Assembly: GCA_026418175.1 (NCBI GenBank)
Contig: JAOABX010000005.1
Span: forward strand, 1 to 64,000
Reading direction: 5' to 3'
Source: Flavobacteriales bacterium
Lineage (GTDB): Bacteria > Bacteroidota > Bacteroidia > CAIKAF01
DNA length: 64,000 nt
Part shown: one piece after another, positions 3,432-19,561 of the stretch
Layout of the letters: every line of letters begins with the position of its first letter
How positions within the stretch are numbered: position 1 is the first letter of the stretch
Notes under the pieces: generated by a model
Told to the model about the DNA's origin: nothing
Seen by the model: the letters and a program-made list of their open reading frames with translations, nothing else
Database searches by the model: none
Position numbers and translations under genes: made by a program

Positions 3432-3514
3432 GCCCTAAAAATACTCAAATGAAAGTGGAGGGAAAACACCCTAAAAGAATTGTTTATAAAATTTTAACCA
3501 TACACAATTATCCG

Positions 3515-3522
3515 TACTTTCG
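3515..3522 (+). promoter_or_regulatory. Possible -7 element of the cdsA promoter
   Basis: TACTTTCG resembles the Bacteroidota -7 box TAnnTTTG with one change. It ends only 5 bp before the cdsA ATG, so transcription would begin at or next to the start codon and the mRNA would be leaderless. No clear TTG -33 box is at the expected distance, so this is tentative. Confidence 0.25.
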
Positions 3523-3527
3523 TTGCC

Positions 3528-4322
3528 ATGAGTAATATGTTAATAAGAGCAATTACCGGAGTCGTATTTTTAGCAGTTATGATTGGTTCTATGCTGCTTG
3601 GCGGATACTTGTTTTTGGGCGTGTTTTCGCTGGTTGTATTTTTTTCGCTCAAAGAATATTTTAAACTGGTTAGAAATTTTAGTCAGCCCTTAGAATTACC
3701 GGCAATAGCTTTATATCTTGTTGGTAGTATTAGTGTTCAATTTTTATCAGAGGCTTTATTCTTTCCATTTTTATTAGCAATATCTATACCGCTTATGGTA
3801 ATAGAACTTTTTAGAAAAAACGAACAACAAGTGATGCATGCCATTACCGTTACATTTCCATTGGTTTGGATTGTATTACCCATGGCGTTGCTGATTCATT
3901 TGGGATTTCATCCGGTTGAGAATATTGAACCCTGGAAAATACTTCTTCCTTACTTTATTTTACTTTGGGTTAATGACACATTTGCATACCTGAGCGGAAA
4001 ATTTTTGGGGAAACACCAATTGGCTCCGCATATCAGTGTAGGTAAAACCATCGAAGGCACATTGGGTGGTATAATATTTACGTTGATAGCAGCTTATTTA
4101 ATTTTTCAATGGATAGAGGTATTTGCTCTATGGAAATGGCTGGTTGCGGCTGCTATCATTGCTCCATTAGGAGTTGCATCTGATTTATTCGAATCAATTT
4201 TTAAGCGTAAGGCAGGTGTAAAAGATTCAGGCAATTTACTTCCCGGACACGGCGGATTGCTCGACCGTTTTGATTCGGTTTTTTTTACAGCACCAATTTA
4301 TTATCTGATTATAAACTGGTAA
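3528..4322 (+). CDS. cdsA: Phosphatidate cytidylyltransferase
   Basis: This 264-aa polytopic membrane enzyme makes CDP-diacylglycerol from phosphatidate and CTP, the branch point for phosphatidylethanolamine and acidic phospholipids. The CdsA signature is complete near the C terminus: SIFKRKAGVKDSGNLLPGHG followed by GLLDRFDS, including the K-D pair and HGG-x-x-DR-x-D. About seven or eight hydrophobic helices precede it. Its length is normal. The gene stands alone on the plus strand, divergent from rmuC. It works upstream of the phosphatidylserine decarboxylase encoded at 12077. Confidence 0.95.
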   Translation: MSNMLIRAITGVVFLAVMIGSMLLGGYLFLGVFSLVVFFSLKEYFKLVRNFSQPLELPAIALYLVGSISVQFLSEALFFPFLLAISIPLMVIELFRKNEQQVMHAITVTFPLVWIVLPMALLIHLGFHPVENIEPWKILLPYFILLWVNDTFAYLSGKFLGKHQLAPHISVGKTIEGTLGGIIFTLIAAYLIFQWIEVFALWKWLVAAAIIAPLGVASDLFESIFKRKAGVKDSGNLLPGHGGLLDRFDSVFFTAPIYYLIINW

Positions 4323-4404
4323 ATGTATATTTTTTACACTTTTAAGCAACGTTATGTTTAAATAGTAGGTCTTAGTATCTAAATCTCATATCAAAATACA
4401 CGGT

Positions 4405-5469
4405 ATGATAAGAAACCTTTTATACTTCAGCCTGGCAGCATTATTAATCATAGAAAAAGCTTTGCTGAGCCATGCTCAATGCAACCTCAATCCAACCATC
4501 ACTCCAAGTTCAGTAATGTTTTGTCCTAATGCTGTAGCTGAAACATTGCAAACTCAAAATTATCAAACGTATCAATGGTTTATTTTCGATTCTTATAACC
4601 ATATATCATCACCCATTAGCGGTGCTACCGGCCAACAGTTAATTATTGATCCGATCAACTACATAGGATTAGAAGTATATGTAAAGGTAAGTGACGGAAT
4701 TTGTACCGATAGTTCAGAAACTGTATTTATTGATGGTTGGGTATTTCTTCCACCGTTTGTGATGCATGCTGGCGACCAAGGCACCATAGGAAGTAATGGT
4801 GAACAATACATGAACTGCGGAGATACAACAATGCTGATATTGATGCCTCCTTACACTGAGCAGATTCAATGGTATAATTACGGTAACCCAATACCAGGAG
4901 CTACAAACGACACACTAATCATAACTCAAACCGGCCATTATACCTGCAGTGGAGCTCCGGCAGTTTGTCCAGATTACTTGCAACAGTTGGGTGTAGTAAT
5001 TGAAATTTACTTTCCTAACCCAACCATTCCCGTAATAACATTAGAAAATGGAATACTACATGCTTCAGGGAATGGCACATTTCAATGGTACTTGAATGGA
5101 CAACCCATTAACGGCGCTAACCAAAACACATTGGTTCCCTTGCAAAACGGAACGTATACTGTAACAATTATGGATGATTTTCAATGCGAAACAGAATCTG
5201 AACCTTTTATTCTTAATAATTTATCCATGCCCCAAATTTTAAACGAATTGTATTTAAACGTTTATCCGAATCCTATACAAACACACCTGATGTTTGAAAA
5301 TTTATCACAGGAAAAACAATATATACGTATAATCAATGCTTACGGACAGTTGATTCAAGAAATTGAAATGATGGCCAGAGAAGTTCGTTTGATATTCATG
5401 CTAAACTATGCTCCGGGTATTTATCTAATACAGTGTAATCATTCCAGCTACCATGTCATCAAGCAGTAA
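4405..5469 (+). CDS. T9SS-secreted surface protein, unknown function
   Basis: The 354-aa product has a signal peptide (cleaved near SHAQC, residue 24). Its middle part consists of Ig-like or SprB-like beta repeats with the recurring pattern QWY/F-x(6-12)-GA-x-x-Q/N-x-L, about residues 45-270. The C-terminal 75 residues form a T9SS type A sorting domain (LNVYPNPIQTHLMFENL ... YAPGIYLIQ). It should cross the outer membrane through the Por/Gld system and be displayed or released. No enzymatic motif is seen. The gene is isolated, with about 80 bp and 150 bp AT-rich flanks. Confidence 0.8.
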   Translation: MIRNLLYFSLAALLIIEKALLSHAQCNLNPTITPSSVMFCPNAVAETLQTQNYQTYQWFIFDSYNHISSPISGATGQQLIIDPINYIGLEVYVKVSDGICTDSSETVFIDGWVFLPPFVMHAGDQGTIGSNGEQYMNCGDTTMLILMPPYTEQIQWYNYGNPIPGATNDTLIITQTGHYTCSGAPAVCPDYLQQLGVVIEIYFPNPTIPVITLENGILHASGNGTFQWYLNGQPINGANQNTLVPLQNGTYTVTIMDDFQCETESEPFILNNLSMPQILNELYLNVYPNPIQTHLMFENLSQEKQYIRIINAYGQLIQEIEMMAREVRLIFMLNYAPGIYLIQCNHSSYHVIKQ

Positions 5470-5625
5470 TAAAGTTAATTTTTTCAAAGTATTGCGAAGA
5501 AGTTCTGGAACATAATTCAAGCCTTTTTCATATTTCATATAAGCAAATAAGAAATTTCATATCCCCAAAAATTCATTTTTTTTTCTCATTTTGCATTGAA
5601 ATTCTTACCAAATAATTTCCATGCT

Positions 5626-6759
5626 ATGAGCAATCTAATTGTAAAAAAAGTAGAAACACCCAAAGAACTTAAACGTTTTATATTTCTTCCTTGGAAAATT
5701 TATAAAGATGATCCCGTATGGGTAGCTCCATTAAAAGGCGATTATAAAAAAATCTTCGACCCTAAAAAAAGTCCGTTTTTCCTGCACGGCGAAATGGTGT
5801 ATTTTCTTGCTACCCGAGACGGAGAAGATGTTGGAAGGGTTGCAGCTATTAAAAATACGTTGCATAATAAAACATGGAACGACAAAGTTGGTTTTTTCGG
5901 TTTTTTTGAATGCATTGATGACCAGGAAGTAGCCAACGCATTGCTGGATGCTGCAAAAGAACAATTAAAATTATGGGGGTTTGACCATATGCGTGGTCCT
6001 GCCAGCCCTTCAAGCAATGAAGACTATGGGGTTTTAATTGATAACTTTAAAGACCAGCATGTTTTAATTTCTACGTATAATGCCCCGTATTATTACAAAC
6101 TTTACTTAGGTTACGGATTGAAAGGTATAAAAGAATTGTATGCCATCCGATTCCCCGGCCGAGAAATTGAAGCAAAACAAGGTGAACGCCTGAAACGATT
6201 GAAGGAAACCGTATTGCAACGTACCGGAGTACATTTTGAAAACCTTAACATGAAGAAATTTGCTGAAGGAGTTAAAACATTTCGAGGTATTTTTAATGAA
6301 GCCTGGAACACTACATACAACCACGGGTGGGTTCCCCTTACAGATGCAGAGTTTGACCATATTACCAGTTCACTAAAACCAATTACCGATCCGGAATTGG
6401 TACTCATAGCAAAAAAGGATGATAAAGTAATTGGTGGTATGATTTGCCTTCCTGACTGGAACGAAGTATTTAAAAGTTGGAAAGGAAATATCTTCCCATT
6501 TCACTGGATTGATTTATTTACCAAGAAGAAAACCATCAAATGCCTCCGTGTGGTAATTTTGGGTGTATTGCCCGAATATCAGAAAAAAGGGTTGGATGTA
6601 GTAATGTACCATGAAGTAATGCGTCGTGGTTTAGATAAAGGCATGGAGTGGGCAGAGGCATCGTACATTGTGGAAGATAATTTACCCATGTTTAAACCTT
6701 TAATGAATATTGGTGGAGAAGTATATAAAACATACAAAGTGATGGAAATGCCTATCTGA
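5626..6759 (+). CDS. GNAT-like N-acetyltransferase of unknown substrate
   Basis: This 377-aa protein belongs to a large bacterial family with an N-terminal segment of the type VETPKELKRFIFLPWKIYKDDPVWVAPL and a FGFFECIDDQEVANALLDAA block, fused to a C-terminal GNAT-like acetyl-CoA fold (about 230-377, GVLPEYQKKGLDVVMYHEVMRRG). The family is usually annotated only as N-acetyltransferase. I chose ATG 5626 because homologous proteins begin just before this conserved segment; an in-frame ATG at 5596 would add 10 residues. It is followed after 20 bp by the site-2 protease and probably shares its transcript. Confidence 0.8.
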   Translation: MSNLIVKKVETPKELKRFIFLPWKIYKDDPVWVAPLKGDYKKIFDPKKSPFFLHGEMVYFLATRDGEDVGRVAAIKNTLHNKTWNDKVGFFGFFECIDDQEVANALLDAAKEQLKLWGFDHMRGPASPSSNEDYGVLIDNFKDQHVLISTYNAPYYYKLYLGYGLKGIKELYAIRFPGREIEAKQGERLKRLKETVLQRTGVHFENLNMKKFAEGVKTFRGIFNEAWNTTYNHGWVPLTDAEFDHITSSLKPITDPELVLIAKKDDKVIGGMICLPDWNEVFKSWKGNIFPFHWIDLFTKKKTIKCLRVVILGVLPEYQKKGLDVVMYHEVMRRGLDKGMEWAEASYIVEDNLPMFKPLMNIGGEVYKTYKVMEMPI

Positions 6760-6779
6760 AAAATAAAAATACTACAAAC

Positions 6780-7856
6780 ATGGAACTATTAAAAGTAAAA
6801 GGAATTCCCATTCGAATTCACTGGAGTTTTATACTCATTTTAGGGTATGTTGCTTATGTGAACTATAAAGCCGGCAGTCAGTTTAATGAAATAGTTTGGG
6901 CTATTATTTATGTTCTTACATTATTTTTATGTGTTACATTACATGAGCTAGGACATGCGTTAGCGGCATTGCGCTATGGAGTTAAAACGAAAAGTATCAC
7001 GTTATATCCGATTGGAGGGGTAGCAGCACTGGAAAGAATTCCGGAAAAACCCGGACAAGAATTGGTAGTTGCTCTGGCTGGCCCATTAGTAAATGTAATC
7101 ATCGGAGGTATTTTATGGCTTTGGGTATTTTTTTCTCCCATAGAATATCGCCTGGAAGACATTGGTATTCGAATCAATGCTCACAACTTAGTGTTAAATC
7201 TTGCAGCGGTAAATATCATATTGGTCATTTTTAATTTATTACCAGCTTTTCCGATGGATGGTGGCCGGGTACTTCGTTCGTTGCTTGCATTAGCTATGGA
7301 TAGAGTTAAAGCTACACAAATTGCCATGTATGTCGGGCAAGCTATGGCCATTTTGTTTGTATTCTGGGGATTTCAAAGTAATCCATTTCTGATTTTAATT
7401 GGAGTATTTATCTTTTTTGGAGCTGCACAAGAATATCAAATGGTTAAAAGCAGCGGTTTTTTAAAGAAAAAATTGGTGGCTGACGCTTTAATGACCCGAT
7501 TTACTACTTTAAGTTTAGCAAATACATTGGAAGAAGTTAAAAATCTAATACTTCAAGGCCATGAAAAAGAGTTTATTGTTATTGATCTTTTTGGACAGCC
7601 GGTGGGTATTATGACCCGCGATATTTTAATTCAACATTTAGCATCCGGCAGTAAAGAACTTACTGTGGCAGAGTGTTATCTAAAATCTTCTATTCATTTT
7701 AGCCCTGATACTGATTTGGATGAAGCATTTAAGATAATGCAATCTGAAGGGATACCCATTGTTCCTGTAATTGAAAACGAGCAAATGATAGGTGTTATCA
7801 ACACTGAAAATATTCTTGAATGCATCATGTTAGGTGAAGCAATGCATAAAAAATAG
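6780..7856 (+). CDS. Site-2 protease family (M50) metalloprotease with CBS pair
   Basis: The 358-aa membrane protease has the zinc motif HELGH at residues 55-59 in a hydrophobic helix and the second motif NLLPAFPMDGGR around residue 155, whose Asp is the third zinc ligand. A C-terminal pair of CBS domains (about 225-355) follows and probably senses adenine nucleotides. Such proteins cleave transmembrane substrates within the bilayer; the substrate here is unknown. The first ATG matches family starts (LLKVKGIPIRIHWSF). The stop lies 2 bp from the stop of the convergent membrane protein gene. Confidence 0.9.
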   Translation: MELLKVKGIPIRIHWSFILILGYVAYVNYKAGSQFNEIVWAIIYVLTLFLCVTLHELGHALAALRYGVKTKSITLYPIGGVAALERIPEKPGQELVVALAGPLVNVIIGGILWLWVFFSPIEYRLEDIGIRINAHNLVLNLAAVNIILVIFNLLPAFPMDGGRVLRSLLALAMDRVKATQIAMYVGQAMAILFVFWGFQSNPFLILIGVFIFFGAAQEYQMVKSSGFLKKKLVADALMTRFTTLSLANTLEEVKNLILQGHEKEFIVIDLFGQPVGIMTRDILIQHLASGSKELTVAECYLKSSIHFSPDTDLDEAFKIMQSEGIPIVPVIENEQMIGVINTENILECIMLGEAMHKK

Positions 7857-7858
7857 TT

Positions 7859-10108
7859 TTACATGTCTTTGCAAATTAACGGGTGACTGTTGTAACGTAT
7901 TGGCCTGCCTAAAGAACTGTATTCTATTACCTTCTCATTCGATTTTCGAATCATTACGTCATCAACTATGTAACGAAGGGATGGGAAGTCATAGCCAATT
8001 AAGAATAATTCATAGGTCTTGAAAGGATTGAGTTCAAAGGTACATTCTGTATAACTCCATCCATCATGAATAATTTCACTACGTGCCGGATTCGAAAAGG
8101 TTACCCAGCCTTCAAAAGTTCCATCAGTAGCATAACTTTGTACTACAAAACAACCATTCACCGCATTTTCAGCACGATTATACACCCAACACGAAGCAGT
8201 ATATAATCCGGAAGGAAGCGTTCCTGGGTCTATCGAAAGCAATACATTTCCATCACCCCTGCGAAAAGTACGAACACCTTTTCCATGATGAGGTGCAATA
8301 AATGGTTCATCTTCCAAATCCTTTTGAATAACCAACGAATGATTATACGTCTGAAACGTGTTATAATACTTAGCAACGGTATCGCAAGCTGTAGTTTTTC
8401 CCCATTCATCACCTGTTAGTAAATAGTATGAATGATGGTTAATTGAAGAAACATATTTTGCACGCTGTAAAAATTTTTTTTCTGTAGAGGTTATTTGGGT
8501 TGTATCTGCCAATAATAATAAAGGGCCGGATAAAAAATACGCTGCCAAGGGAGCCTTATAAATTGGAAGATTAAAAGATTCTCGAATAGCTTCGGTTTCT
8601 GTTTCAGATGGACGAATTAAAATTCCGCCTACCAACGGTAAATTTGTGTACCAAGACAAAAGATATCCATTAATCATAGACGTGTCAGAAAATGGAGAAG
8701 AATACCGAAAACTTGATTCTAACGATAATGGCAAACTTACCACTGCAGAAGGATTATACATCTTTTGAATACGTAAAGCTTCCACCCAAAGCGAATTTTC
8801 ACTCATCGTAATGTAAAAATTGGAATGTGTAGTAAGTTTACGATGAAATGTTGCATGCATAAATGTAATATCCAATAATCCATACAATACAACAAAGAGC
8901 AACATGATTAACGATTGAAGTCTCCATACTTTTTTACACTGGTCATAAAAAATATAAATTCCTGTTAGAGATGTAATGCCAAGTACATAATAAAAGGGCC
9001 AAGCAAAACGTGCTACAAAACGAAATTGTTTGGCATAGTACACCCATTCATACAACCACTCAAATTTTGTCAGCCCAAAAACTCCGGTTGCAAAAACAAT
9101 CAACAAAAATGCCGGAATTAACATCAAACCCAATAAATATAAATGAGAGAATGCTTCATGTTTTTTAATTTTTCGCCATGTGATAATACAACTACACAGT
9201 AAAACCCAAAAGATGAATGGCACCGAAGCATTGTCGAAATAATTGGGTTGTTCTTTTGGAAATAGTTTTTGAAGCCAATAGGCTGAGAATCCACTGCCCT
9301 GAATAAACCATTCATATACTCCCAAGTAGTTCTCACCAAATCCGCCGGCAACCGGATTTCGGTGAAGGTGTGTATCGGTAATTTGTAAAATGAAAATATA
9401 CAAGATAACCGGCACTAATGCCAGGATGATTAATTGTATAACGTTTCTATAAGTTTGTAATGAACGATAACATATCATCCATACAATTTGAACCAAACTA
9501 ACAAAAGCTGTATGTATTAGCCCCAAGTAAGGATGAGAAAAATAAGATGCAGTGATGAATAAAAATAACAAGAGTGCATATCCCCATGTGTTTTCTTTAC
9601 TCCAACGAAGTAAAAAGAAAATAAGTGCAGGTAGATAAAATACATAGCTCAATGAAAAATTACCTGCCATTTTAAACCACTGGGGAGATAAAAAACCAAC
9701 CAGCAGGGCAAATAATACACTAAAAAAACGATTCACATGCAGCTCTTCAAAAATCCGAGTTAAGAAATAACACGAAAGAACCAATGGTACAAAGTGAATC
9801 AGATTAAAAAAACCAATTGAATACGGCTGAAGAAAAGGAAAAATTGAAAATAATATTTTGCTACACCCAAGCAGCAACGGGTCGCAATCTAAATAAAATA
9901 AATTTTCTCCAAATGGATGATTCAGCCACTTGATATCAACCCCATGCCCATCACGCAGATATTGTAAGAACACAAAATAAGCTCGCTGACCATCTTTTCC
10001 TAAATCTAAAATATATGAATTGGGAAAGAACAAAAGTTTAGTATAATGAATAATCAACATTAAAACTGAAGGCACCCAGCGGTAGAAAGCAAATGATTTA
10101 ACAGTCAT
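7859..10108 (-). CDS. Large multi-pass membrane protein, GT-C glycosyltransferase-like
   Basis: The 749-aa product has about 11-12 predicted transmembrane helices in residues 10-420. The first periplasmic loop contains KDGQRAYFVFLQYLRDGHG and HPFGENLFYLDCDPLL, with acidic residues placed as in GT-C type lipid-linked-sugar transferases. The C-terminal 250 residues are soluble and end in a jelly-roll or carbohydrate-binding-like beta domain (about 615-725, SGLYTASCWVYNRAENAV ... WSYTECTFEL). The family is not recognised beyond fold. A role in surface glycan or protein glycosylation is inference. It is divergent from the gene at 10213. Confidence 0.6.
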   Translation of the reverse strand: MTVKSFAFYRWVPSVLMLIIHYTKLLFFPNSYILDLGKDGQRAYFVFLQYLRDGHGVDIKWLNHPFGENLFYLDCDPLLLGCSKILFSIFPFLQPYSIGFFNLIHFVPLVLSCYFLTRIFEELHVNRFFSVLFALLVGFLSPQWFKMAGNFSLSYVFYLPALIFFLLRWSKENTWGYALLLFLFITASYFSHPYLGLIHTAFVSLVQIVWMICYRSLQTYRNVIQLIILALVPVILYIFILQITDTHLHRNPVAGGFGENYLGVYEWFIQGSGFSAYWLQKLFPKEQPNYFDNASVPFIFWVLLCSCIITWRKIKKHEAFSHLYLLGLMLIPAFLLIVFATGVFGLTKFEWLYEWVYYAKQFRFVARFAWPFYYVLGITSLTGIYIFYDQCKKVWRLQSLIMLLFVVLYGLLDITFMHATFHRKLTTHSNFYITMSENSLWVEALRIQKMYNPSAVVSLPLSLESSFRYSSPFSDTSMINGYLLSWYTNLPLVGGILIRPSETETEAIRESFNLPIYKAPLAAYFLSGPLLLLADTTQITSTEKKFLQRAKYVSSINHHSYYLLTGDEWGKTTACDTVAKYYNTFQTYNHSLVIQKDLEDEPFIAPHHGKGVRTFRRGDGNVLLSIDPGTLPSGLYTASCWVYNRAENAVNGCFVVQSYATDGTFEGWVTFSNPARSEIIHDGWSYTECTFELNPFKTYELFLIGYDFPSLRYIVDDVMIRKSNEKVIEYSSLGRPIRYNSHPLICKDM

Positions 10109-10200
10109 TATATAAATATTTCTTTAAGAAGATTTTTAAATTTTATATAAATATACTTCCAATAAAACCATTTATCAGCCTTCACGCAAGGTTATTTTTT

Positions 10201-10208
10201 TATTTTTG
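10201..10208 (+). promoter_or_regulatory. Putative -7 box before the GTG-started gene
   Basis: TATTTTTG is a perfect match to TAnnTTTG. It ends 4 bp before the GTG start codon at 10213, so the predicted transcript would start on or near the first codon. No convincing -33 TTG is at the usual distance. Confidence 0.35.
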
Positions 10209-10212
10209 CTGC

Positions 10213-10593
10213 GTGAAAATAAAAGCATCTGCAATCTTCATATTAATTATTCTTAGCGTGCCTATGCTAAGCAAATTGGGATTGTGGGTATATTTTATAT
10301 CAAACAGAAAAGAAATTGCAAAAACCCTATGCGTCAACAAAGATATTCCTGATTCATGTTGTAAAGGAAAATGTTATTTGGGAAGTCAATTAAAGAAAGT
10401 GGATGATCCTAGTCAAGACACTAAGCAAGTTCCACCACTATCAATTAAATTAAAGGAATTTGCTGCTGAATTAATTATTCAAGAAAATCCATTTGGCTTT
10501 TATGAAGAAATAAAAATTATTATATGGCCTGATATTAATTTTAAATTACTACAACCCAATCTTTTGCCCTTTTTTCATCCTCCCGAAGTTTAA
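10213..10593 (+). CDS. Small membrane-anchored protein with a CCxGKC cysteine motif
   Basis: The 126-aa protein starts at GTG; the frame has no earlier start. It has one hydrophobic N-terminal helix (about 5-30) and then KTLCVNKDIPDSCCKGKCYL, with Cys40, Cys49, Cys50 and Cys54. I recognise this as a common but unnamed Bacteroidota family (pattern C-x-N-x(4)-P-x(2)-CC-x-GKC-x-L). The cysteines sit just outside the membrane and suggest metal or thiol chemistry. It is first in a three-gene set with an outer-membrane-like protein (10631) and a His-rich lipoprotein (11561). Function is unproven. Confidence 0.7.
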   Translation: MKIKASAIFILIILSVPMLSKLGLWVYFISNRKEIAKTLCVNKDIPDSCCKGKCYLGSQLKKVDDPSQDTKQVPPLSIKLKEFAAELIIQENPFGFYEEIKIIIWPDINFKLLQPNLLPFFHPPEV

Positions 10594-10630
10594 GAATGTT
10601 CTTTTATTATTTTCTTAAACTTATCAATCT

Positions 10631-11542
10631 ATGCAGGTATTAAAACAAATTTTAGGGTGCCTATTTGTAATGTTTTTGTATCAAATAGGTCGGCCATGTG
10701 ATATTTGTGGTTGTTCAGTAGGCGGAATGTACATGGGAATATTACCCCAGTTTCAAAATCATTTTGTAGGATTCAGATATCAATACCGGGAGTTTACTTC
10801 TACCCATACATTCAATCAAAATGCTTACAATTCAACCGATCGGTTTCATACCCTTGAACTTTGGGGTAGGTTTTACCCTCATCGTAAAATTCAACTCATG
10901 GCATTTATGCCGGTAAATTATTTTACAAAAAATGAAAACGAACGGGTGACTTCTACCATTGGACCAGGGGATCTAACCGTTTTAACAAATTACATGGCTT
11001 ACAATACACCAGACACAGCCATAACCTGGTGGAAACATAATTTACTCGTGGGTGGAGGATTAAAATTGCCCACAGGAGATTTCAATCATTATCGAAATGA
11101 TTCGCTATTAAATCCGAATTTGCAATCCGGTACAGGTTCATGGGATTTTTTACTAAATACTTCCTACACGGTTCGTTATAAGAAATTGGGCATGAATGTA
11201 GAGGCAAATGCCCGATTTAATACTTCCAATGCACATGGCTATCGTTTTGGGCATCGTTTTAATGGGGCTATTCGCTTTTTTTTATGGACAAAAATTAAGT
11301 CCACTTCATTAGTGCCTTACATTAGCTTTCTTATAGATTATGCCTTAAAAGACCGAAACAGGAATTTAATCGTTTTAGAAAGCGGTGGAATCAATCTAAC
11401 TCCACAATGGGGGTTGGATTTGTACTTCAAAGAACGATGGATGGTTGGTGCATTTGCATCGCATAAAATGTGGGATTATTTAGGAAATGGAACCATTCAA
11501 TCCGGATGGCGTTTTGGTGTTCAAACCGTTTTTATTTTTTAA
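10631..11542 (+). CDS. Predicted outer-membrane beta-barrel with N-terminal CDxCGC motif
   Basis: This 303-aa protein has a signal peptide followed immediately by RPCDICGCSVGGMYMGILPQ (Cys23, Cys26, Cys28). The rest alternates polar and hydrophobic residues with many aromatics and ends in FGVQTVFIF, typical of an outer-membrane beta barrel. Segments such as MAFMPVNYF and GLKLPTGDF are typical of transporter-like barrel proteins found near metal genes. It lies 37 bp after the Cys-motif gene and 18 bp before the His-rich lipoprotein, so the three are probably co-transcribed. Metal binding or export is inference from the Cys motif and neighbours. Confidence 0.65.
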   Translation: MQVLKQILGCLFVMFLYQIGRPCDICGCSVGGMYMGILPQFQNHFVGFRYQYREFTSTHTFNQNAYNSTDRFHTLELWGRFYPHRKIQLMAFMPVNYFTKNENERVTSTIGPGDLTVLTNYMAYNTPDTAITWWKHNLLVGGGLKLPTGDFNHYRNDSLLNPNLQSGTGSWDFLLNTSYTVRYKKLGMNVEANARFNTSNAHGYRFGHRFNGAIRFFLWTKIKSTSLVPYISFLIDYALKDRNRNLIVLESGGINLTPQWGLDLYFKERWMVGAFASHKMWDYLGNGTIQSGWRFGVQTVFIF

Positions 11543-11560
11543 ATTTTAAAATCTATTACC

Positions 11561-11956
11561 ATGAAAAGAATATCAAGTAAATTAGCTTTAATGTCATTAA
11601 GCAGTATGTTGTTGCTTTCAGCTTGCCATAAACATGACGAAACTGATGTACAAATTCAAATTACCTCTCCCCTGACAAATAGTATGTATCATTTAGGTGA
11701 TACCGTTAAAATTCAAGGTACAATCACTGGGAATACTGAAATGCACGGATATGAAGTCAAAATTAAAAACCTATCGCAAGGGAATGTGGCATTCATAACC
11801 GATTATCATGACCATGGCTCCAATTATACAATCAATGAATTTTGGGTAAATAATGTAACAGAACATAGCGATATGCGACTAGTGGTAAAAGTAGAAGTAG
11901 ATCATAGCGGAACAATGGTATCAGATTCGCTCAATTTTCATTGTCATCCTATGTAA
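11561..11956 (+). CDS. His-rich lipoprotein, DUF4625-like
   Basis: The 131-aa product has a lipoprotein signal (LLLSACHKHDE; lipid-modified Cys about residue 22) and one immunoglobulin-like beta domain with the pattern ITSPLTNSMYHLGDTVKIQGTI, resembling DUF4625. Histidines cluster at the N terminus (CHKHDE), mid-domain (DYHDHGS) and the end (FHCHPM), which suggests divalent metal binding. It is the last gene of the set and is followed by a strong terminator. Function is unproven. Confidence 0.7.
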   Translation: MKRISSKLALMSLSSMLLLSACHKHDETDVQIQITSPLTNSMYHLGDTVKIQGTITGNTEMHGYEVKIKNLSQGNVAFITDYHDHGSNYTINEFWVNNVTEHSDMRLVVKVEVDHSGTMVSDSLNFHCHPM

Positions 11957-11975
11957 TAACTAAACATTCCTATAC

Positions 11976-12006
11976 AAAAAAGGCAGCTAATTTTGCTGCC
12001 TTTTTT
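11976..12006 (+). terminator. Rho-independent terminator after the Cys/His-rich gene set
   Basis: GGCAGC-taatttt-GCTGCC forms a 6-bp GC-rich stem extended by A/T pairs and followed by TTTTTT. It lies 20 bp after the lipoprotein stop and marks the end of the three-gene transcript before psd. Confidence 0.9.
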
Positions 12007-12076
12007 GTTTGTAATTGTGCAAGAACAGTAAACTTAAGAATGATTTTAATACTTTTATCCAATAATCTAAATACAT

Positions 12077-12736
12077 ATGGGTATTCATAGAGAAGGTAGA
12101 ACCTGGCTTATTATTAGCTTTATATTATGGGTATCTGTAACTACAACTTTGTATTTACTTGATGCACCAATCCTTGTAATGGCTATTATGAGCGGGTTAC
12201 TCGGAGTGATATTTTTAATATTATTGCAATTTTTCAGGGTACCGCATCGAATTCCCAAAGTTGGTGATGATTTTATTTTATGTCCGGCTGATGGCAAGGT
12301 GGTAGTAATAGAAAAAACCTTTGAACCAGAATATTTAAAGGAAGATGTAATACAGATATCAGTGTTTATGAGCCCTTTTAATGTGCATAAAAATTGGTAT
12401 CCAGTAAGCGGAGAAGTCGAGTATTATCAATATCATCCCGGGAAATATTTAGTGGCATGGCATCCAAAATCTTCTACTGAAAATGAACGAAGTACTACTG
12501 TCATTCGACGTAAAGACGGGAAAAAAATTTTGGTTCGGCAAATTGCCGGTATTTTGGCACGCAAAATTTGTTGTTATGTAAAACCAAAATCGCAGGTTAA
12601 TCAGGGGGATGAATTAGGCTTTATTAAATTCGGTTCGCGGGTTGATATATTCTTACCACTGGATGCTGAAATCAAAGTACAGTTGAACGAACTAGTTAGG
12701 GGGAGTCAAACAATTCTTGCTATTTTAAAGCAATGA
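12077..12736 (+). CDS. psd: Phosphatidylserine decarboxylase family protein (short type)
   Basis: The 219-aa proenzyme has two N-terminal transmembrane helices (about 8-50), an F-R-P-like RVPHRIP segment, CPADGKVV and SVFMSPFNVHKNWYPVSG. The self-cleavage site is GS at residues 186-187 in KFGSRVDIFLP; Ser187 should become the pyruvoyl cofactor. This is the short, PsdD-like form common in Bacteroidota. It makes phosphatidylethanolamine from phosphatidylserine at the inner membrane. It converges on ndh with a 10-bp gap. Confidence 0.92.
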   Translation: MGIHREGRTWLIISFILWVSVTTTLYLLDAPILVMAIMSGLLGVIFLILLQFFRVPHRIPKVGDDFILCPADGKVVVIEKTFEPEYLKEDVIQISVFMSPFNVHKNWYPVSGEVEYYQYHPGKYLVAWHPKSSTENERSTTVIRRKDGKKILVRQIAGILARKICCYVKPKSQVNQGDELGFIKFGSRVDIFLPLDAEIKVQLNELVRGSQTILAILKQ

Positions 12737-12746
12737 ACTTCTAGTT

Positions 12747-14036
12747 TTATGATTTTTGTGTATAAGGGCGTGTAATAATTCGTATGGCTCGCTGATATGT
12801 GATATAATTCCAAAGCCAGTTTAAAAAAACCATCATCCTATTTCTAAAACCAACCAGAAGCATCAAATGTAAAAACATCCATCCCAACCAGGCAATATAA
12901 CCTTGCAATTTAAATCCGTAAATTTCAAACACTGCCTTATGCCTTCCAATGGTTGCCATACTTCCTTTGTTCTTATAAATAAAAGGCTGCATGGGTTCCT
13001 TTTTAAGCAAACGAATAATATTTTTTGCAAGTAATCGTCCTTGTTGTTGTGCTACCGTAGCTACCATCGGATGGCCATTGGGATAATTTTTATCGGAAGT
13101 CATATATGCCACATCGCCAATAACAAAAATATCTTCATAACCCTCTAATCGGTTAAAGGCATCTACTTTGTAACGATTTCCCCGAGATACAAGTTCTGTT
13201 TTAATTCCTTCAATCGTTTTTCCTATCACTCCAGCACTCCAAATCACTGTATCAGTTTCTAATACTTTATTATTACTTAATGTTAGTTGACCATTTGAAG
13301 CATTATATGAAATTACCGATGTATTAGTTAACACCTCCACACCAAGCTGTTTTAAAAAAAATTCAGCTTTTCGAGATGAAATTTCACTCATGGACGAAAG
13401 TACTCTTGGAGCAGCTTCAATTAAATACACGTGCATCTTAGAAGCATCCAGTTCTTTGTAATCAGCGGGAATAACATACTTCTTTATTTCAGCCAAAGCA
13501 CCGGCTGTTTCAACGCCGGTAGGACCTCCACCCACAATTACAAAATTGAGAATACGTTCTATTTTACCCGAATCACTTTCACTCAAAGCCTTTTCAAACT
13601 CCTGCAAAATATCACTACGTAAATCCAATGCATCTGGTATTGATTTTAATTGCATGCAATATTTTTCTAATTCCTTATTATCGAAAAAATTTGTTTTTGC
13701 CCCGGTAGCTATGCATAAATAATCATATGAAATTTTACCAATGCTGGTATATATTTGCTTTTGGTTGGTATCAATAAAATTTACTTCTGCCATTCGAAAT
13801 ATTACATTAGGCATTTTGCTAACGATTTTTCGTAACGGATATACAATAGAATCCGGGCCCAGTCCTCCCGAAGCTACCTGATACATCAGCGGTTGAAAAT
13901 TAAAATAATTATTTTTATCAATTACAGTAACTTTTATCGGCTTCCCATTCAACTTCTTTATCAGTTCCAATCCGGCAAACCCACATCCTATAAGTATTAA
14001 ATGCGGAGCATTCATTGTATAAAAATTAATTTTCAT
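12747..14036 (-). CDS. ndh: Type II NADH dehydrogenase (NAD(P)/FAD oxidoreductase)
   Basis: The 429-aa flavoprotein has an N-terminal FAD-binding motif (LIGCGFAGLE, about 15-24) and a second dinucleotide motif for NADH (FVIVGGGPTGVETAG, about 165-180). The FAD-contacting IFVIGDVAYM segment is near residue 305. A C-terminal amphipathic region (MFLHLMLLVGFRNRMMVFLNW) fits membrane attachment. It should pass electrons from NADH to menaquinone without proton pumping. ATG 14036 is followed by an alternative ATG at 14015 that would start with MNAPHLILIG, equally plausible. Confidence 0.9.
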   Translation of the reverse strand: MKINFYTMNAPHLILIGCGFAGLELIKKLNGKPIKVTVIDKNNYFNFQPLMYQVASGGLGPDSIVYPLRKIVSKMPNVIFRMAEVNFIDTNQKQIYTSIGKISYDYLCIATGAKTNFFDNKELEKYCMQLKSIPDALDLRSDILQEFEKALSESDSGKIERILNFVIVGGGPTGVETAGALAEIKKYVIPADYKELDASKMHVYLIEAAPRVLSSMSEISSRKAEFFLKQLGVEVLTNTSVISYNASNGQLTLSNNKVLETDTVIWSAGVIGKTIEGIKTELVSRGNRYKVDAFNRLEGYEDIFVIGDVAYMTSDKNYPNGHPMVATVAQQQGRLLAKNIIRLLKKEPMQPFIYKNKGSMATIGRHKAVFEIYGFKLQGYIAWLGWMFLHLMLLVGFRNRMMVFLNWLWNYITYQRAIRIITRPYTQKS

Positions 14037-14121
14037 AGTTTTTAAATTATATCACCCCTCACAAGTTGAGATAAGTTATAATAACATAAAAATTAAATAT
14101 TAATTAAGTTTAAAACCAACA

Positions 14122-15324
14122 TTAATGAAGAGACTTTAGTAGCTTAAGTTTATATACCATATTATTTGTGTAAGCCTCAATAATATACACACCTGATGCC
14201 CATGAATCAGTTGATACATTTACTTCTGAACCTGAAACAAGTTGATCTATAATAATTTTTCCATAAACATCAGCAATTCGAATTCTGTTGAGCTTTCCGG
14301 ATGAAAGTGATATTAATGTACTACTTACAGCAGGATTAGGATATACTTTTAATGCTTTATTTTCTGAATCCTCCAGATTGATGTGTAATTCATTGATGTA
14401 AGGCACAGCCAGGCTTGAAAGCGCAGCAATGGCAAGCTTGGATGTGCGATGATAATACGAAATATTGAAATAAGTAACACTATCTCTTACTGTATGATAC
14501 TGCGGATTAGGATCATTATCCCAGTCTTCAATAAACAGCAAGGCAGAAAATCCTTTGTTCCAAAAAGAAGCATGATCGCTATACGTTGCTCCGGGATTAT
14601 TTATCATAAGATTTAAACCAATATCATATCGTTCATTCACAATGTATAAACTATCCCCTAATGATTCAGAATCGGCAATGGGCCTTACATGAATACGAGC
14701 TACGCTGTCATTATTCCCATCCCAAGCAATTGCATCCAGGTTAATGACACCCATAATGGTATCGTTATTGTTTTGAGCCATTGTGGCATAGGCATTACTA
14801 CCAATCAATCCTTGTTCTTCTTCATCCCAAATAGCATACAAAATCGTATATTCAAAATCATACTGTGAAAGGATTCTGGCAGCTTCCAAAACAGTTGCCA
14901 CTCCGCTCCCATCATCATCAGCTGCTGGTGCGATGCTTGTATTGGGCAAACCATCATAATGTGAACAAAAAATAAAATAACGATGGGGATATACAAAACC
15001 CGTTTGTATAGCTAAGGCATTTTTTCCTAACGAACCAAATTTTTGTGAATCTACCGCCAAACCAAAAGAAGAAAATTCCTGCATGATATAACGGTAAGCC
15101 AATTCATTTCCCTGCCGGGTGCGATGCCTGGAATAAATGGTATCTAAAACACCATTTACATATACTCCACGATATCCGGAAATTTCTTCTGCCCTGTACA
15201 TCAAACTATCAATACTCACCTGTGATAAAATAGAAGATACAACTGGATGTTGCTGTGCTTGTAAGGGCAAAATAGGAGTAATTAAAAATGTAATGACAAC
15301 ATAGAGAAGAATTTTTTTAGACAT
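14122..15324 (-). CDS. T9SS-secreted M28 family Zn aminopeptidase
   Basis: This 400-aa exported protein has a signal peptide (ends near LPLQAQ, residue 24) and an M28 catalytic domain with the expected ligands: HYDG, ADDDGSG, the DEEEQGLIGS glutamate pair, NLDAIAW and YSDHASFW. The C-terminal 75 residues are a T9SS type A sorting domain (LKVYPNPAVSSTLISL ... WASGVYIIEAY). It likely releases amino acids from peptides outside the cell. It lies 55 bp after the Cys-rich membrane protein on the same strand, and ndh follows after 85 bp. Confidence 0.9.
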   Translation of the reverse strand: MSKKILLYVVITFLITPILPLQAQQHPVVSSILSQVSIDSLMYRAEEISGYRGVYVNGVLDTIYSRHRTRQGNELAYRYIMQEFSSFGLAVDSQKFGSLGKNALAIQTGFVYPHRYFIFCSHYDGLPNTSIAPAADDDGSGVATVLEAARILSQYDFEYTILYAIWDEEEQGLIGSNAYATMAQNNNDTIMGVINLDAIAWDGNNDSVARIHVRPIADSESLGDSLYIVNERYDIGLNLMINNPGATYSDHASFWNKGFSALLFIEDWDNDPNPQYHTVRDSVTYFNISYYHRTSKLAIAALSSLAVPYINELHINLEDSENKALKVYPNPAVSSTLISLSSGKLNRIRIADVYGKIIIDQLVSGSEVNVSTDSWASGVYIIEAYTNNMVYKLKLLKSLH

Positions 15325-15379
15325 GAGAGTTATATTTTTTAAAGTTAAGCAAATGACTATTAAAAAGAAAAATAAGAAT

Positions 15380-15994
15380 TCATTTTATCCATTTTTTTAT
15401 GGCAAGATAAATCAGCAACATGCCCAATACAGATATTACAATCAAAAATACCTTTTGCCTGTCTGAAGCATGAGCTAACGGACGGCTTGCATCAATTACG
15501 GTTTTTCCGGTACTATCAATTTCATTCACCATTGACGCATTAACAAAATCCTTTTTAGGAAAATTTTTTTCTAAAAATAAAATCTCTTCATCCCAACTCA
15601 TTTGACTATAAATGGTATACTCATCTTCCTCTCCAGCTGGTATTTTTTTTCTATTTCGTTCACAATAGTGTACAGTAAAATCACCGGTATTATTTTTTTT
15701 AATATAAAGCAACCAAATAGCACCAACTTCAAATGGCATTTTACAAGTGGTAATACAATCATAGTTCACTTGAAATGGAGAAGAAATGATTCCTTTGTAC
15801 AATGTAATCCCTTCAAATGTTGCCACACCTGTATTTTTGCCAGGTTCAAGTTTTACAACACGAGCCACGGTAATTACTTGAAACGAATCAGTAGCAGCTT
15901 TATTCAGCGGAGGCAACAACTGCCCGCAATCACAAGCCAACAAAGAATATGAACCTAATAGAACAAACAGAATATTTAAAATAATTCTACGCAT
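15380..15994 (-). CDS. Exported CDCG protein with C-terminal membrane anchor
   Basis: From ATG 15994 the product is 204 aa: a signal peptide ending at LLACDCG, a beta-rich domain with VITVARVVKLEPGKNTGVATFEGITLYKGI and two further cysteines (DCITTCKMPF), and a C-terminal transmembrane helix (about 182-200) followed by KKWIK. The CDCG start and fold pattern resemble the TIMP/netrin-like extracellular domains common in Bacteroidota; function is unknown. A longer frame from 16039 exists, but the signal peptide fits 15994, which overlaps the hutH stop by 8 bp. Confidence 0.7.
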   Translation of the reverse strand: MRRIILNILFVLLGSYSLLACDCGQLLPPLNKAATDSFQVITVARVVKLEPGKNTGVATFEGITLYKGIISSPFQVNYDCITTCKMPFEVGAIWLLYIKKNNTGDFTVHYCERNRKKIPAGEEDEYTIYSQMSWDEEILFLEKNFPKKDFVNASMVNEIDSTGKTVIDASRPLAHASDRQKVFLIVISVLGMLLIYLAIKKWIK

Positions 15995-17486
15995 ATTCAG
16001 ATGGCTGATGTTGCTCAAGAAATTCAACTGATTTTTCAAATAATGGGTACATCAAGGTATCTTGCTCAATAAAAGGAACAACTTTTCGGAATTCAGTTCG
16101 AAGTTTTTCTATTGAATCACTGCTAACCAGTGGTTTTCTAAAATCAAGGGCCTGAATAGCGGTCATTAATTCAATACTTAATATTTGATACAAATTTTTG
16201 GTGATGCGATATGCCTTGGTAGCAGCATTGGCTCCCATACTTACATGGTCTTCCTGTCCACGGGATGAATCAATCGTGTCAGCAGAAGCCGGCATGCATA
16301 AAGTTTTATTTTGACTTACCATGGAGGCTGCACTGTACTGGGCAATCATAAAACCAGAATTAATTCCGGGAAAAGGAGTTAAAAAAGCAGGCAATTCGCG
16401 ATTGCCGTTAATCAACTGATAAATTCTACGTTCAGAAATACTCCCAAGTTCATGCAGAGCAATACTTAAAAAATCAAGAGCCAATGCTAACGGTTGTCCG
16501 TGAAAGTTTCCTCCTGATAAGATCAAGTCTTCATCCGGAAATAAGGTAGGATTGTCTGTTACGGAATTACATTCAATTTCAAATACTTTTAAAGCATATT
16601 GTATTGCATCCCAACTGGCCCCATGTACTTGGGGTATGCAACGGAAGGAATAAGGATCCTGAACATGCTTTTTAGCTTGAGCTGCAATTGAACTTCCGCT
16701 AAGGTACTTCCTCATTCGATCAGCAGCAATAATCTGTCCGTTATGTGGACGTATTGTGTGCAAAGAAGGATAAAAAGGTTCTGTTCTTCCATCAAATGCA
16801 TCCAATGATACAGATCCGATAAATGTAGCCCACTCCCAAAGATGAATAGCCTGCATACAAATCCATGCGCCATAAGCACTCATAAACTGTGTACCATTCA
16901 GCAAAGCCAATCCCTCTTTGCTTTGTAGATTTATTGGAGACCAACCCAGCTTCCGTAATACCTCTGCCGATGATACGCGTTTTCTATTCCAAAATACTTC
17001 TCCTTCTCCTAATAAAGGTAAGGAAAGATGTGCCAAAGGAGCCAGATCGCCCGATGCTCCTAAACTTCCCTGCTGATAAACAACTGGCCAAATACCTTCG
17101 TTGAACATATCTACCAAACGCTGCACCGTACTAAGCTGAACACCAGAATTCCCATAACTCAAACCGCGAATCTTTAAATACATCATCAGCTTTATAACTT
17201 CCTCCGGAACAGGTTCTCCCATTCCGCAGGCATGTGACCTTACCAAATTTTCCTGCAGTTTTTGCAAATCCTTTGCTTCAATTCGCGTGTTATATAAAGC
17301 TCCAAAACCTGTATTTATACCATAAATAGGTTCATTATGGCTGGATAATTTTTCATCTAAATAAGTTCGTCCCCTTAGAATGGCTTCTTTACTTAGATCA
17401 CTCAAGATTATAGTTGCTCCAGGAATCAGAACCTGTTGCCATTCTTTCAATGAAGCGGGCTGATTGCTTATTACTATTTGATTCAT
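15987..17486 (-). CDS. hutH: Histidine ammonia-lyase
   Basis: This 499-aa enzyme converts histidine to urocanate. The MIO prosthetic group forms from Ala144-Ser145-Gly146 in GSLGASGDLAP. Tyr55 (YGINTGFG) and the selectivity pair Ser84-His85 (VRSHACGMG) match histidine-specific lyases, not the His-Leu of tyrosine or Phe-Leu of phenylalanine lyases. Length is normal. Its ATG overlaps the hisS stop by 4 bp. No hutU, hutI or hutG is in the window. A role in aryl-polyene or flexirubin pathways, where related lyases occur, is less likely given the selectivity residues. Confidence 0.9.
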   Translation of the reverse strand: MNQIVISNQPASLKEWQQVLIPGATIILSDLSKEAILRGRTYLDEKLSSHNEPIYGINTGFGALYNTRIEAKDLQKLQENLVRSHACGMGEPVPEEVIKLMMYLKIRGLSYGNSGVQLSTVQRLVDMFNEGIWPVVYQQGSLGASGDLAPLAHLSLPLLGEGEVFWNRKRVSSAEVLRKLGWSPINLQSKEGLALLNGTQFMSAYGAWICMQAIHLWEWATFIGSVSLDAFDGRTEPFYPSLHTIRPHNGQIIAADRMRKYLSGSSIAAQAKKHVQDPYSFRCIPQVHGASWDAIQYALKVFEIECNSVTDNPTLFPDEDLILSGGNFHGQPLALALDFLSIALHELGSISERRIYQLINGNRELPAFLTPFPGINSGFMIAQYSAASMVSQNKTLCMPASADTIDSSRGQEDHVSMGANAATKAYRITKNLYQILSIELMTAIQALDFRKPLVSSDSIEKLRTEFRKVVPFIEQDTLMYPLFEKSVEFLEQHQPSEYA

Positions 17487-18868
17487 GCTTCTTGCGTAAT
17501 TTGCTGAATAAATTCATCCCAACTTATGGTATGCTGCTCTCCGGTGTGCATATTTTTGATTCCCAGTTTACGTTCCAGCAATTCGTTGGAACCAATGGTA
17601 CAAACATATTCAGCCTTCACTTTATCAGCATATTCCATTTGCTTTTTAATCTTCACTGCATCCGGATAGATACCGCAACGGATATTCTTTCCTCGAAGTA
17701 TTTGAATCAAGCGTAAACTTTCTTTGCTTTCTGTTTCGCCAAAATTCAAAAAGAAATATTTGTACCGTGTACTTTCAAACGATGGATATAATTTATGAGC
17801 TAACAGGAGGTCATAAATACGGTCAGCACCAAATGATATGCCTACTCCAGGTAATCCGGGCATTCCAAATATACCGGTAAGGTCATCATACCGTCCGCCA
17901 CCAGCAATACTTCCAAAACCAGAACCCGGCACTTTGACTTCAAAAATACAACCGGTATAATAATCCAAGCCACGAGCTAGGGTAATGTCTAACTCCAACG
18001 TTTCATTTGAAACTCCTAATTCATGAGCTGTTTTAATCACATAGCTTACTTCATCCATTCCTTTCATCCCTGTTTCGCTGGATGATAAAAATTTTTTTAA
18101 AAAAGAAAGTGTATTTTTCTTTAATTCGGCAGCATCAATTACCTGAGATATTTTTTTCAAAGAATCTTCACTGAATCCGTTTTGTTGCATTTCATGCAAT
18201 ACATTTTCTTTTCCAATCTTATCCAGTTTATCCAATGCAACGGTAAAAGAAACAAGCTGTTTGCTAATTCCAGCTACTTCGGCAATACCTGCTAAAATTT
18301 TTCGGTTGTTGATATAAATTTTAAAACCTTGAATTTTTAGTTCTGTTAATACTTCATGTAAAATCAAAATAAGTTCAACTTCATTGATTAATGAAGCACT
18401 ACCCACCACATCGGCATCACACTGATAAAATTCTCTATATCTTCCCTTTTGAGGATTATCGGCCCGCCACACCGGTTGTATCTGGTACCTTTTAAAAGGA
18501 ATGGGTAATTGGTGATGATATTGTACTACATACCTTGCAAAAGGAACCGTAAGGTCATATCGTAAAGCTTTTTCACTGATATGACGAAGTAATTTTTTAG
18601 AATCTATTTGATTAAGGTCTAATCCTGACACTTTCGGTTCTTTTAAATAATCGCCTGAATTAAGCACTTTAAATATTAACCGGTCTCCCTCTTCTCCATA
18701 TTTTCCGGTTAATGTTTCCAATTTTTCCATAGCCGGTGTTTCAATGGGTGAAAAACCAAATTTTTCATATACTCGGCGAATGGTTGAAAATATATAGTTT
18801 CGGCGGGCCATTTCTTCGGGACCAAAATCCCGCATGCCTTTGGGAGCCGATGGCTTTTGTTGACTCAT
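17483..18868 (-). CDS. hisS: Histidyl-tRNA synthetase
   Basis: The 461-aa class II synthetase charges tRNA-His. It starts with KPSAPKGMRDFGPEEMARR and contains LRYDLTVPFARYV (motif 2 region), the histidine-binding ARGLDYYTGCIFEV block, and a motif 3 GGGRYDDL ... GVGISFGADRI. The anticodon-binding domain fills about residues 365-461. A TACCTTCG box on the minus strand at 18887-18894 could be its -7 element. It is the first gene of the hisS-hutH operon. Confidence 0.96.
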   Translation of the reverse strand: MSQQKPSAPKGMRDFGPEEMARRNYIFSTIRRVYEKFGFSPIETPAMEKLETLTGKYGEEGDRLIFKVLNSGDYLKEPKVSGLDLNQIDSKKLLRHISEKALRYDLTVPFARYVVQYHHQLPIPFKRYQIQPVWRADNPQKGRYREFYQCDADVVGSASLINEVELILILHEVLTELKIQGFKIYINNRKILAGIAEVAGISKQLVSFTVALDKLDKIGKENVLHEMQQNGFSEDSLKKISQVIDAAELKKNTLSFLKKFLSSSETGMKGMDEVSYVIKTAHELGVSNETLELDITLARGLDYYTGCIFEVKVPGSGFGSIAGGGRYDDLTGIFGMPGLPGVGISFGADRIYDLLLAHKLYPSFESTRYKYFFLNFGETESKESLRLIQILRGKNIRCGIYPDAVKIKKQMEYADKVKAEYVCTIGSNELLERKLGIKNMHTGEQHTISWDEFIQQITQEA

Positions 18869-18985
18869 GCCTTACAATTTTAAGCCCGAAGGTAGAAATA
18901 TTTGTGCTTAATTAATGCCTTGCAATGCTGTGAATGGATTTTAAAACATTATTTATTTAAAGCAAAATTTACTGTAATTTATTAG

Positions 18986-18993
18986 TAAATTTG
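18986..18993 (+). promoter_or_regulatory. Putative -7 box for the lipoprotein at 19013
   Basis: TAAATTTG matches TAnnTTTG exactly and would give a short leader of about 15 nt before the ATG. No clear TTG -33 box is seen. Confidence 0.3.
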
Positions 18994-19012
18994 TAACTAA
19001 TTATTTTTAATA

Positions 19013-19534: not shown

Positions 19535-19561
19535 TACTTAGCATTTGAATATCCAATATTT

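Follow-up and report, generated by a model that had tools for sequence, protein, structure and literature searches.

A putative copper-responsive leader peptide upstream of an outer-membrane barrel and a His-rich lipoprotein in Bacteroidota

Introduction

CruR, a DUF2946 protein of Bordetella pertussis (bp2923), is a copper-responsive upstream regulator; copper relieves the stall, after which Rho ends transcription (PMC9426467). Arrest by CruR has been reported in vitro (PMC12992588), and a CruR-controlled TonB receptor of B. pertussis has been tied to copper acquisition (PMC12914433). CutF of Rhodobacter capsulatus carries a CxxxC motif and ends in a Pro-rich stretch, and a stem-loop covers the start of the gene that follows. 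Its stall is reported to be prolonged by copper, and the spacing between its motifs is given as 45 residues (PMC9973294). Proteins were counted as CutF-like in that survey when they were shorter than 150 aa and carried PP within the 15 C-terminal residues, with a same-strand next gene within 1,000 nt; a cleavable Sec signal peptide and a stem-loop that shields the start of this gene belong to the criteria as well. The count came to 5,334, 40 % of which (normalised) were from Bacteroidota, so that CutF-like leaders are already counted in bulk in this phylum (PMC9973294). In a 2025 survey, copper-related RAPP or RGPP leaders are stated not to have been found in Bacteroidota (PMC12992588). A third system that is relevant here, the MbnP/MbnH pair, is described as occurring much more widely than methanobactin and has been likened to MopE and CorA, which are copper proteins; as stated in the same paper, no data at that time tied close MbnP homologues to copper (PMC3621798).

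Here, a locus of three genes from a bacterium of the order Flavobacteriales is compared with these systems. The trio is ordinary in its parts, and its first product, p1, is striking. Among the papers listed by full-text literature searches, with few subscription journals covered, none describes the p1 family in its title or abstract.

Samples and searches

A search for relatives of the barrel encoded by the second gene was positive for 10 of the 16 genomes that represent the order and for 69 of the 395 from the phylum; the genome under study is in both samples. Set A comprises 41 loci, namely the locus described here and loci from 40 of the 77 other barrel-bearing genomes, mostly the best-scoring ones. 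Set B consists of 40 further p1 loci, hand-picked from the listed matches away from known barrel loci; on a profile check, two of the 40 contained the barrel and five MbnP/MbnH. Set C holds 80 named barrel loci, the best 80 of 83 confirmed, and shares some genomes with set A. The presence of p1, MbnP, MbnH and the third gene product, p3, was counted per locus by profile searches on all frames, and contig ends depress the neighbour counts in sets A and C. From the three sets, 154 copies of p1 were drawn, 144 of them nonredundant. One barrel match (L079) was judged to be due to chance, as it has neither a CxxCGC motif nor a p1.

The three-gene locus

The stretch of DNA that was analysed (the window, 64,000 nt) comes from a metagenome-assembled Bacteroidota genome of 2.68 Mb in 80 contigs, in which its contig is 150 kb long. 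Three plus-strand ORFs, p1 (10213..10593, 126 aa), the barrel (10631..11542, 303 aa) and p3 (11561..11956, 131 aa), are separated by gaps of 37 and 18 bp and are followed by an intrinsic terminator on the same strand with a stem of 14 pairs (11974..12008). The three genes, their gaps and a terminator had been described in a sequence-only reading of the locus and were confirmed; three terminator-like sites were present in the scanned stretch against 1.0 expected. Upstream of p1 lies a divergent minus-strand gene (7859-10108), and downstream of the trio an ORF begins at 12077 that presumably encodes a phosphatidylserine decarboxylase. Searches of the genome gave one match each for p1, the barrel and p3.

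The GTG start of p1 is followed by an in-frame ATG at 10264; in this genome, the match to the p1 profile already starts at 10225, ahead of that ATG. The Bacteroidota -7 element has the consensus TAnnTTTG. The sequence TATTTTTG at window positions 10201-10208 fits it and ends 4 nt before the GTG, which may call for revising either the promoter or the p1 start.

For p1 and the window barrel no credible match to Pfam or NCBIfam was obtained, and their function is therefore taken from context and motifs. Weak matches of the barrel to Alpha-amy_C_pro and of 3 of 37 p1 members to DAN and TGF_beta were judged to be chance.

Anatomy of p1

The protein has a hydrophobic N-terminal segment followed by a Cys cluster, which had been noted earlier as CCxGKC and was found in p1 as CCKGKC. 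The residues conserved in relatives are C40, C50, G52 and C54, which make up a proposed copper site, C-x9-C-x-G-x-C, of C40 and C50-K-G-K-C54 (codons 10330..10374, plus strand). CxGxC occurs in all 154 p1 copies of sets A, B and C, and the nearest Cys upstream of it sits ten residues before in 129 of the 144 nonredundant copies. In 113 of these 144, a hydrophobicity scan detected a hydrophobic stretch of 15 residues ahead of CxGxC.

The C-terminus of the window protein reads FHPPEV-stop. This ending had escaped the earlier reading, and we think that it is the most telling feature of the protein. The FHPP codons (10573..10584, plus strand) end two residues short of the stop codon and specify a proposed ribosome-stalling motif, the PP of which is conserved in the family. 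In 149 of the 154 copies, PP lies within the last 10 residues, 1-7 residues before the stop, as compared with 15 of 391 non-p1 ORFs of 80-170 aa from these loci. As the first p1 profile took in the C-terminus, the search was repeated with the N-terminal part alone; it gave 154 matches, and PP fell within the last 10 residues of 149 of them and within the last 15 of 153. Among the 144 nonredundant copies, one of which has no terminal PP, F stands two positions ahead of PP in 111, and PP is directly preceded by H, R, K or Q in 124.

Between CxGxC and F-x-PP lies a linker of 65.3 +/- 2.2 residues (143 copies). Linkers of equal length are only 15.5 % identical, against 50 % for the 15-residue Cys core, and between residues 43 and 104 (numbered from the ATG at 10264) no column reaches 60 % conservation. 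A middle part that drifts in sequence at a fixed length, with the last motif placed on the stop codon, would fit a nascent-chain sensor with a ruler.

RNA pairing after the Pro-Pro codons

A hairpin is located between p1 and the barrel gene (10586..10622, plus strand), with arms at 10586-10596 and 10612-10622 that form 11 perfect pairs around a 15-nt loop. The left arm overlies the last two codons and the stop codon of p1, directly after the Pro-Pro codons (10579-10584), and the right arm ends 8 nt before the barrel ATG at 10631. With a footprint of the usual size, a ribosome that stops at Pro-Pro would sit over the left arm. An arm of 11 bp was reached by 8 of 5000 dinucleotide shuffles. In L041, the nearest relative, the stem persists, with both partners exchanged in two of its pairs (1 of 5000 shuffles); as this covariation comes from a single pair of relatives, it is slight.

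Pairing was examined in the 117 nonredundant p1 copies (of 144) with the next gene 30-220 nt away and PP in the last 10 residues, and was scored as exceeding the shuffles when at most 2 of 40 shuffles reached the score. The 24 nt after PP paired downstream beyond the shuffles in 33 of the 117 copies versus 9 of 150 control gene pairs (p = 1.7e-8); with gaps limited to 80 nt, the figures were 13 of 46 versus 3 of 54 (p = 1.2e-5). Pairing was not extreme in the other 84 copies. The window scored a modest z of 1.5 and L041 one of 1.3, and L044, L050, L080 and L218 had little or none. The fold energy of the whole region from p1 to the next gene differed as well, with a median z of -2.2 (121 p1 copies) versus -1.0 (150 controls; p = 5e-5); the 24-nt test is preferred, since the control regions contain terminators.

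The barrel and the lipoprotein

That the second product is a barrel is supported by its structural model, which has a mean pLDDT of 90 and resembles, in a Foldseek search, the outer-membrane channels of the FapF and COG4313 types (TM-scores of 0.63/0.70 with 4rl8_C and 0.63/0.65 with 5o67_B). The CDICGCSVGG sequence reported near its N-terminus is present. This N-terminal tail, with the CDICGC Cys codons at 10697-10714, has a pLDDT below 50 over most of residues 16-31 and is predicted to be disordered. The CxxCGC motif was found in 37 of the 41 set-A barrels; one each has CDFCNC and CDYCEC, and two have no such motif. Residues C23, C26, G27 and C28 are invariant in 57 aligned sequences, some of which were collected by way of the CxxCGC pattern. 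PF13557 (Phenol_MetA_deg) matches 5 of these 57 relatives and does not match the window barrel. The closest barrel among the named genomes, from an uncultured Flavobacteriales MAG, is 83 % identical.

The third product was confirmed to be a His-rich lipoprotein: Cys22 follows the signal sequence, and the protein ends in FHCHPM. Its model contains one Ig-type sandwich after the lipobox (mean pLDDT 89, about 98 from residue 31), and its structural matches are generic folds of the Ig/FN3 type. One of the aligned entries is GbpA (residues 317-414), which is listed with Cu(II); no inference about copper was drawn from it. The label DUF4625-like given to p3 before is weak for the window protein, which matches PF15418 below the gathering cut-off (E 0.015; 16 versus 27 bits), and fair for the family, in which 12 of 31 members match at E <= 0.01 (best 2.6e-11). 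Big_7 (PF17957) matches the window protein weakly, below cut-off, and 20 of the 31 members. Invariance across the 31 sequences is confined to the lipobox Cys and a single Pro; the His residues vary, so that a single conserved copper site in p3 is unsupported.

Copper-related neighbourhoods of the barrel

MbnH oxidises a tryptophan of MbnP and thereby makes its copper site. Profile searches of set A found p1 in 39 of the 41 loci, MbnP and MbnH in 29 each and p3 in 11. The order p1-MbnP-MbnH-barrel is the commonest (23 of 41), followed by p1-barrel-p3 (9 of 41). PF20243 (MbnP) and a diheme peroxidase domain were verified on three of the pairs, which the NCBIfam MbnP and MbnH models match below their equivalog cut-offs. 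In set C, 63 of the 80 loci have p1, 37 MbnP, 35 MbnH and 34 p3.

The trio had been proposed as a unit. It exceeds chance in this respect, as p1, barrel and p3 recur together without MbnP/MbnH in 10 loci of set A, the window included, and in 24 of set C. In one locus of set A p3 stands alongside the pair, and in 8 of set C it co-occurs with MbnP; that p3 replaces MbnP/MbnH is a tendency and no strict rule. MbnP/MbnH are missing from the barrel loci L080 and L011 (a Hymenobacter plasmid) as well, and L060 has no p1 beside its barrel. A profile search of window positions 2001-20000 detected no MbnP/MbnH. The MbnP-MbnH pair of the same genome is located on another contig (G000:C18:8980-9561), with neither p1 nor barrel in the 16 kb examined around it (L085), and MbnP matches were obtained in all 16 genomes of the order. 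In L055 and L057, a p1 copy stands on each side of the MbnP-MbnH-barrel set, the second preceding a TonB receptor and a PepSY gene.

p1 beyond the barrel operon

Of 395 Bacteroidota genomes, 160 contain a match to the p1 profile; for the barrel, an equally large draw gave 69. The first one or two genes after p1 in 35 set-B loci encode 66 proteins, among which, tallied over the best 25 of 36 families, were at least 21 TonB receptors, at least six PepSY_TM proteins, at least five YtkA proteins, at least two Fe/Mn superoxide dismutases, and at least one SCO1 and one MbnP. As an upstream control, 37 of 39 proteins were scanned, L142 and L151 being left out as they adjoin a second p1 copy. No family occurred more than three times among these 37, and none of the 25 families listed out of 43 was a TonB receptor, so that at most one can be present. 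Two of the 37 are SCO1 proteins, which perhaps stem from neighbouring copper operons. Some p1 copies, such as that of L135, precede genes of no evident copper link.

Other arrangements were seen. L069, L071 and L073 have another p1 copy upstream, which precedes a series of short genes for secreted and SCO-like products; that of L069 is followed by a protein of 91 aa that contains a CNMP motif and by an SCO-like protein. Two tandem p1 copies occur in L150 and L151. In L136, L138, L140, L143 and L164, p1 is followed by a lipoprotein of about 265-285 aa and then by a TonB receptor of about 665-680 aa. In L157 (1455-3312), p1 is followed by a His-rich protein of 204 aa and a protein of 503 aa that resembles a heme-copper oxidase subunit I.

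Proposed mechanism and alternatives

On balance, it is probable that p1 is a copper-responsive nascent-chain leader over a copper-acquisition barrel and a His-rich lipoprotein, which are switched on when copper is scarce. Its parts differ in firmness: that the operon serves copper is highly likely and that p1 is a regulatory leader is likely, while expression at low copper is the direction towards which we lean. The sequences, the conservation of motifs and spacing, the hairpin and the gene context were observed directly; from comparison we infer stalling, copper binding, the sign of the response and transport. The N-terminal hydrophobic segment would send the nascent chain to the inner membrane, and the ribosome would tend to stall at the terminal Phe-His-Pro-Pro. 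The stalled ribosome would mask the left arm of the hairpin, leaving barrel and lipoprotein translatable; once unmasked, the hairpin would fold across the p1 stop to 8 nt before the barrel start. At the stall, C-x9-CxGxC, about 67 residues upstream, would probably be outside the ribosome and the Sec channel, and copper bound there would alter the stall. Copper is thought here to end it, because p1 copies elsewhere precede TonB-receptor and PepSY_TM genes, like CruR; the sign is uncertain, since CruR acts via Rho and CutF answers copper in the opposite way. The barrel would serve as a channel through which copper or a copper ligand crosses the outer membrane. The lipoprotein p3 would bind metal; it tends to occupy the place held by MbnP/MbnH in other lineages.

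If the sign were that of CutF, copper would prolong the stall and keep the hairpin open, and the operon would be on at copper excess, with barrel and lipoprotein serving in detoxification or export. The CxxxC of CutF has the same Cys spacing as the CxGxC of p1, and the short gap of CutF, with a stem-loop over the start that follows (PMC9973294), is nearer to the 37-nt gap in the window than the 162 nt of CruR. The TonB receptors, PepSY_TM proteins and MbnP/MbnH encoded after p1 copies, however, look like acquisition, and we regard this reversed sign as unlikely. Export, which the sequence-only reading had put forward beside sensing, is unsupported on the same grounds. Sensing is supported for p1 as a nascent leader peptide rather than as a resident metal-binding membrane protein. 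On another reading, p1 would be a stable small membrane-anchored copper chaperone that feeds the barrel tail and the lipoprotein, with no translational control. The conserved Cys cluster does follow a hydrophobic segment in 113 of the 144 copies, as a chaperone might have it; such a protein would hardly account for sixty unconserved residues of fixed length, an F-x-PP held at the stop and RNA pairing just after PP, which makes a chaperone improbable.

The choice of metal had been left between copper and zinc. Cys and His sites are unspecific, and an operon for zinc, nickel, iron or some further metal would be compatible with them. The presence of both MbnP and MbnH in 29 of the 41 set-A loci, and TonB receptors, PepSY_TM proteins and one SCO1 after p1 copies, favour the copper half of that proposal. 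Neighbourhoods consistently unrelated to metals would have spoken against any metal, and they were not found, so that this check did not refute the metal reading. MbnP/MbnH near the barrel and SCO1 and PepSY_TM near other p1 copies argue against a metal other than copper, as does the p1 site itself, which is Cys-based and of a type reported as mostly linked to copper genes (PMC9973294); another metal is very improbable.

If the proposed copper-responsive leader is real, it would give a rule of copper regulation to a phylum for which the 2025 survey reports none of the RAPP/RGPP-type copper leaders (PMC12992588). A leader gene would then flag copper-related operons in 160 of 395 sampled Bacteroidota genomes, and the puzzling MbnP/MbnH pair would gain two frequent companions in this phylum, the Cys-tailed barrel and the p1 leader. 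The fixed spacing in p1 would also render cytoplasmic versus periplasmic copper sensing directly testable.

Comparison with known systems

The predicted fold of the barrel resembles that of the COG4313/Phenol_MetA_deg and FapF channels, from which the barrel differs in its CDxCGC N-terminal tail, its copper context and its lack of a Pfam match. The p3 family shares profile matches and an Ig-type model with the DUF4625/Big_7 Ig-like lipoproteins, whereas the window protein is below cut-off and sits in a proposed copper leader operon. The MbnP/MbnH pair (TIGR04052/TIGR04039, PF20243) stands between p1 and barrel in the commonest order and is absent beside the window barrel. MbnP does not appear in the main text of the survey of CutF-like proteins (PMC9973294).

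CutF and p1 share the CxxxC spacing, a Pro-rich C-terminus and a stem-loop between leader and next gene, but the spacing of the motifs is 45 residues in CutF and about 65 in p1, and the stall of CutF is described as prolonged by copper (PMC9973294). The window p1 is within the limits of that survey in length (126 aa), in PP (two residues before the stop) and in gap (37 nt), and it has a stem-loop (10586-10622) of a kind enriched in the family, where pairing is extreme in 33 of 117 copies. It may thus be among the CutF-like proteins counted there (PMC9973294).

Both CruR and p1 are small first ORFs of the exported type with a Cys copper motif, which is proposed in p1. They have Pro-Pro a few residues before the stop at a fixed motif spacing, and precede genes for TonB receptors, PepSY_TM, SCO and MbnPH-like proteins. 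They differ in the Cys motif (CxGxC with an extra Cys in p1, CXXC in CruR), in the end motif (F-[HRKQ]-PP versus RAPP), in the linker (about 65-66 versus 45 residues) and in what follows, a 37-nt gap with a hairpin in the window and a 162-nt Rho region for CruR. DUF2946 (PF11162) matched none of 37 p1 members at E <= 0.1 and none of 21 related genomes. A comparison of the p1 profile with one DUF2946-like protein of pMOL30 was also negative, a weak result as this yardstick scores below the DUF2946 cut-off. Judged by its anatomy, p1 works like CruR and CutF but lies outside DUF2946. We give an even chance to the broader reading that the p1 proteins are phylum-wide copper-sensing arrest peptides of the Bacteroidota that have no sequence kinship with CruR/DUF2946 and evolved the same trick independently. 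Their C-x9-CxGxC, about 65 residues from F-x-PP, would read copper outside the inner membrane and control MbnP/MbnH-barrel, barrel-lipoprotein and TonB-receptor/PepSY operons.
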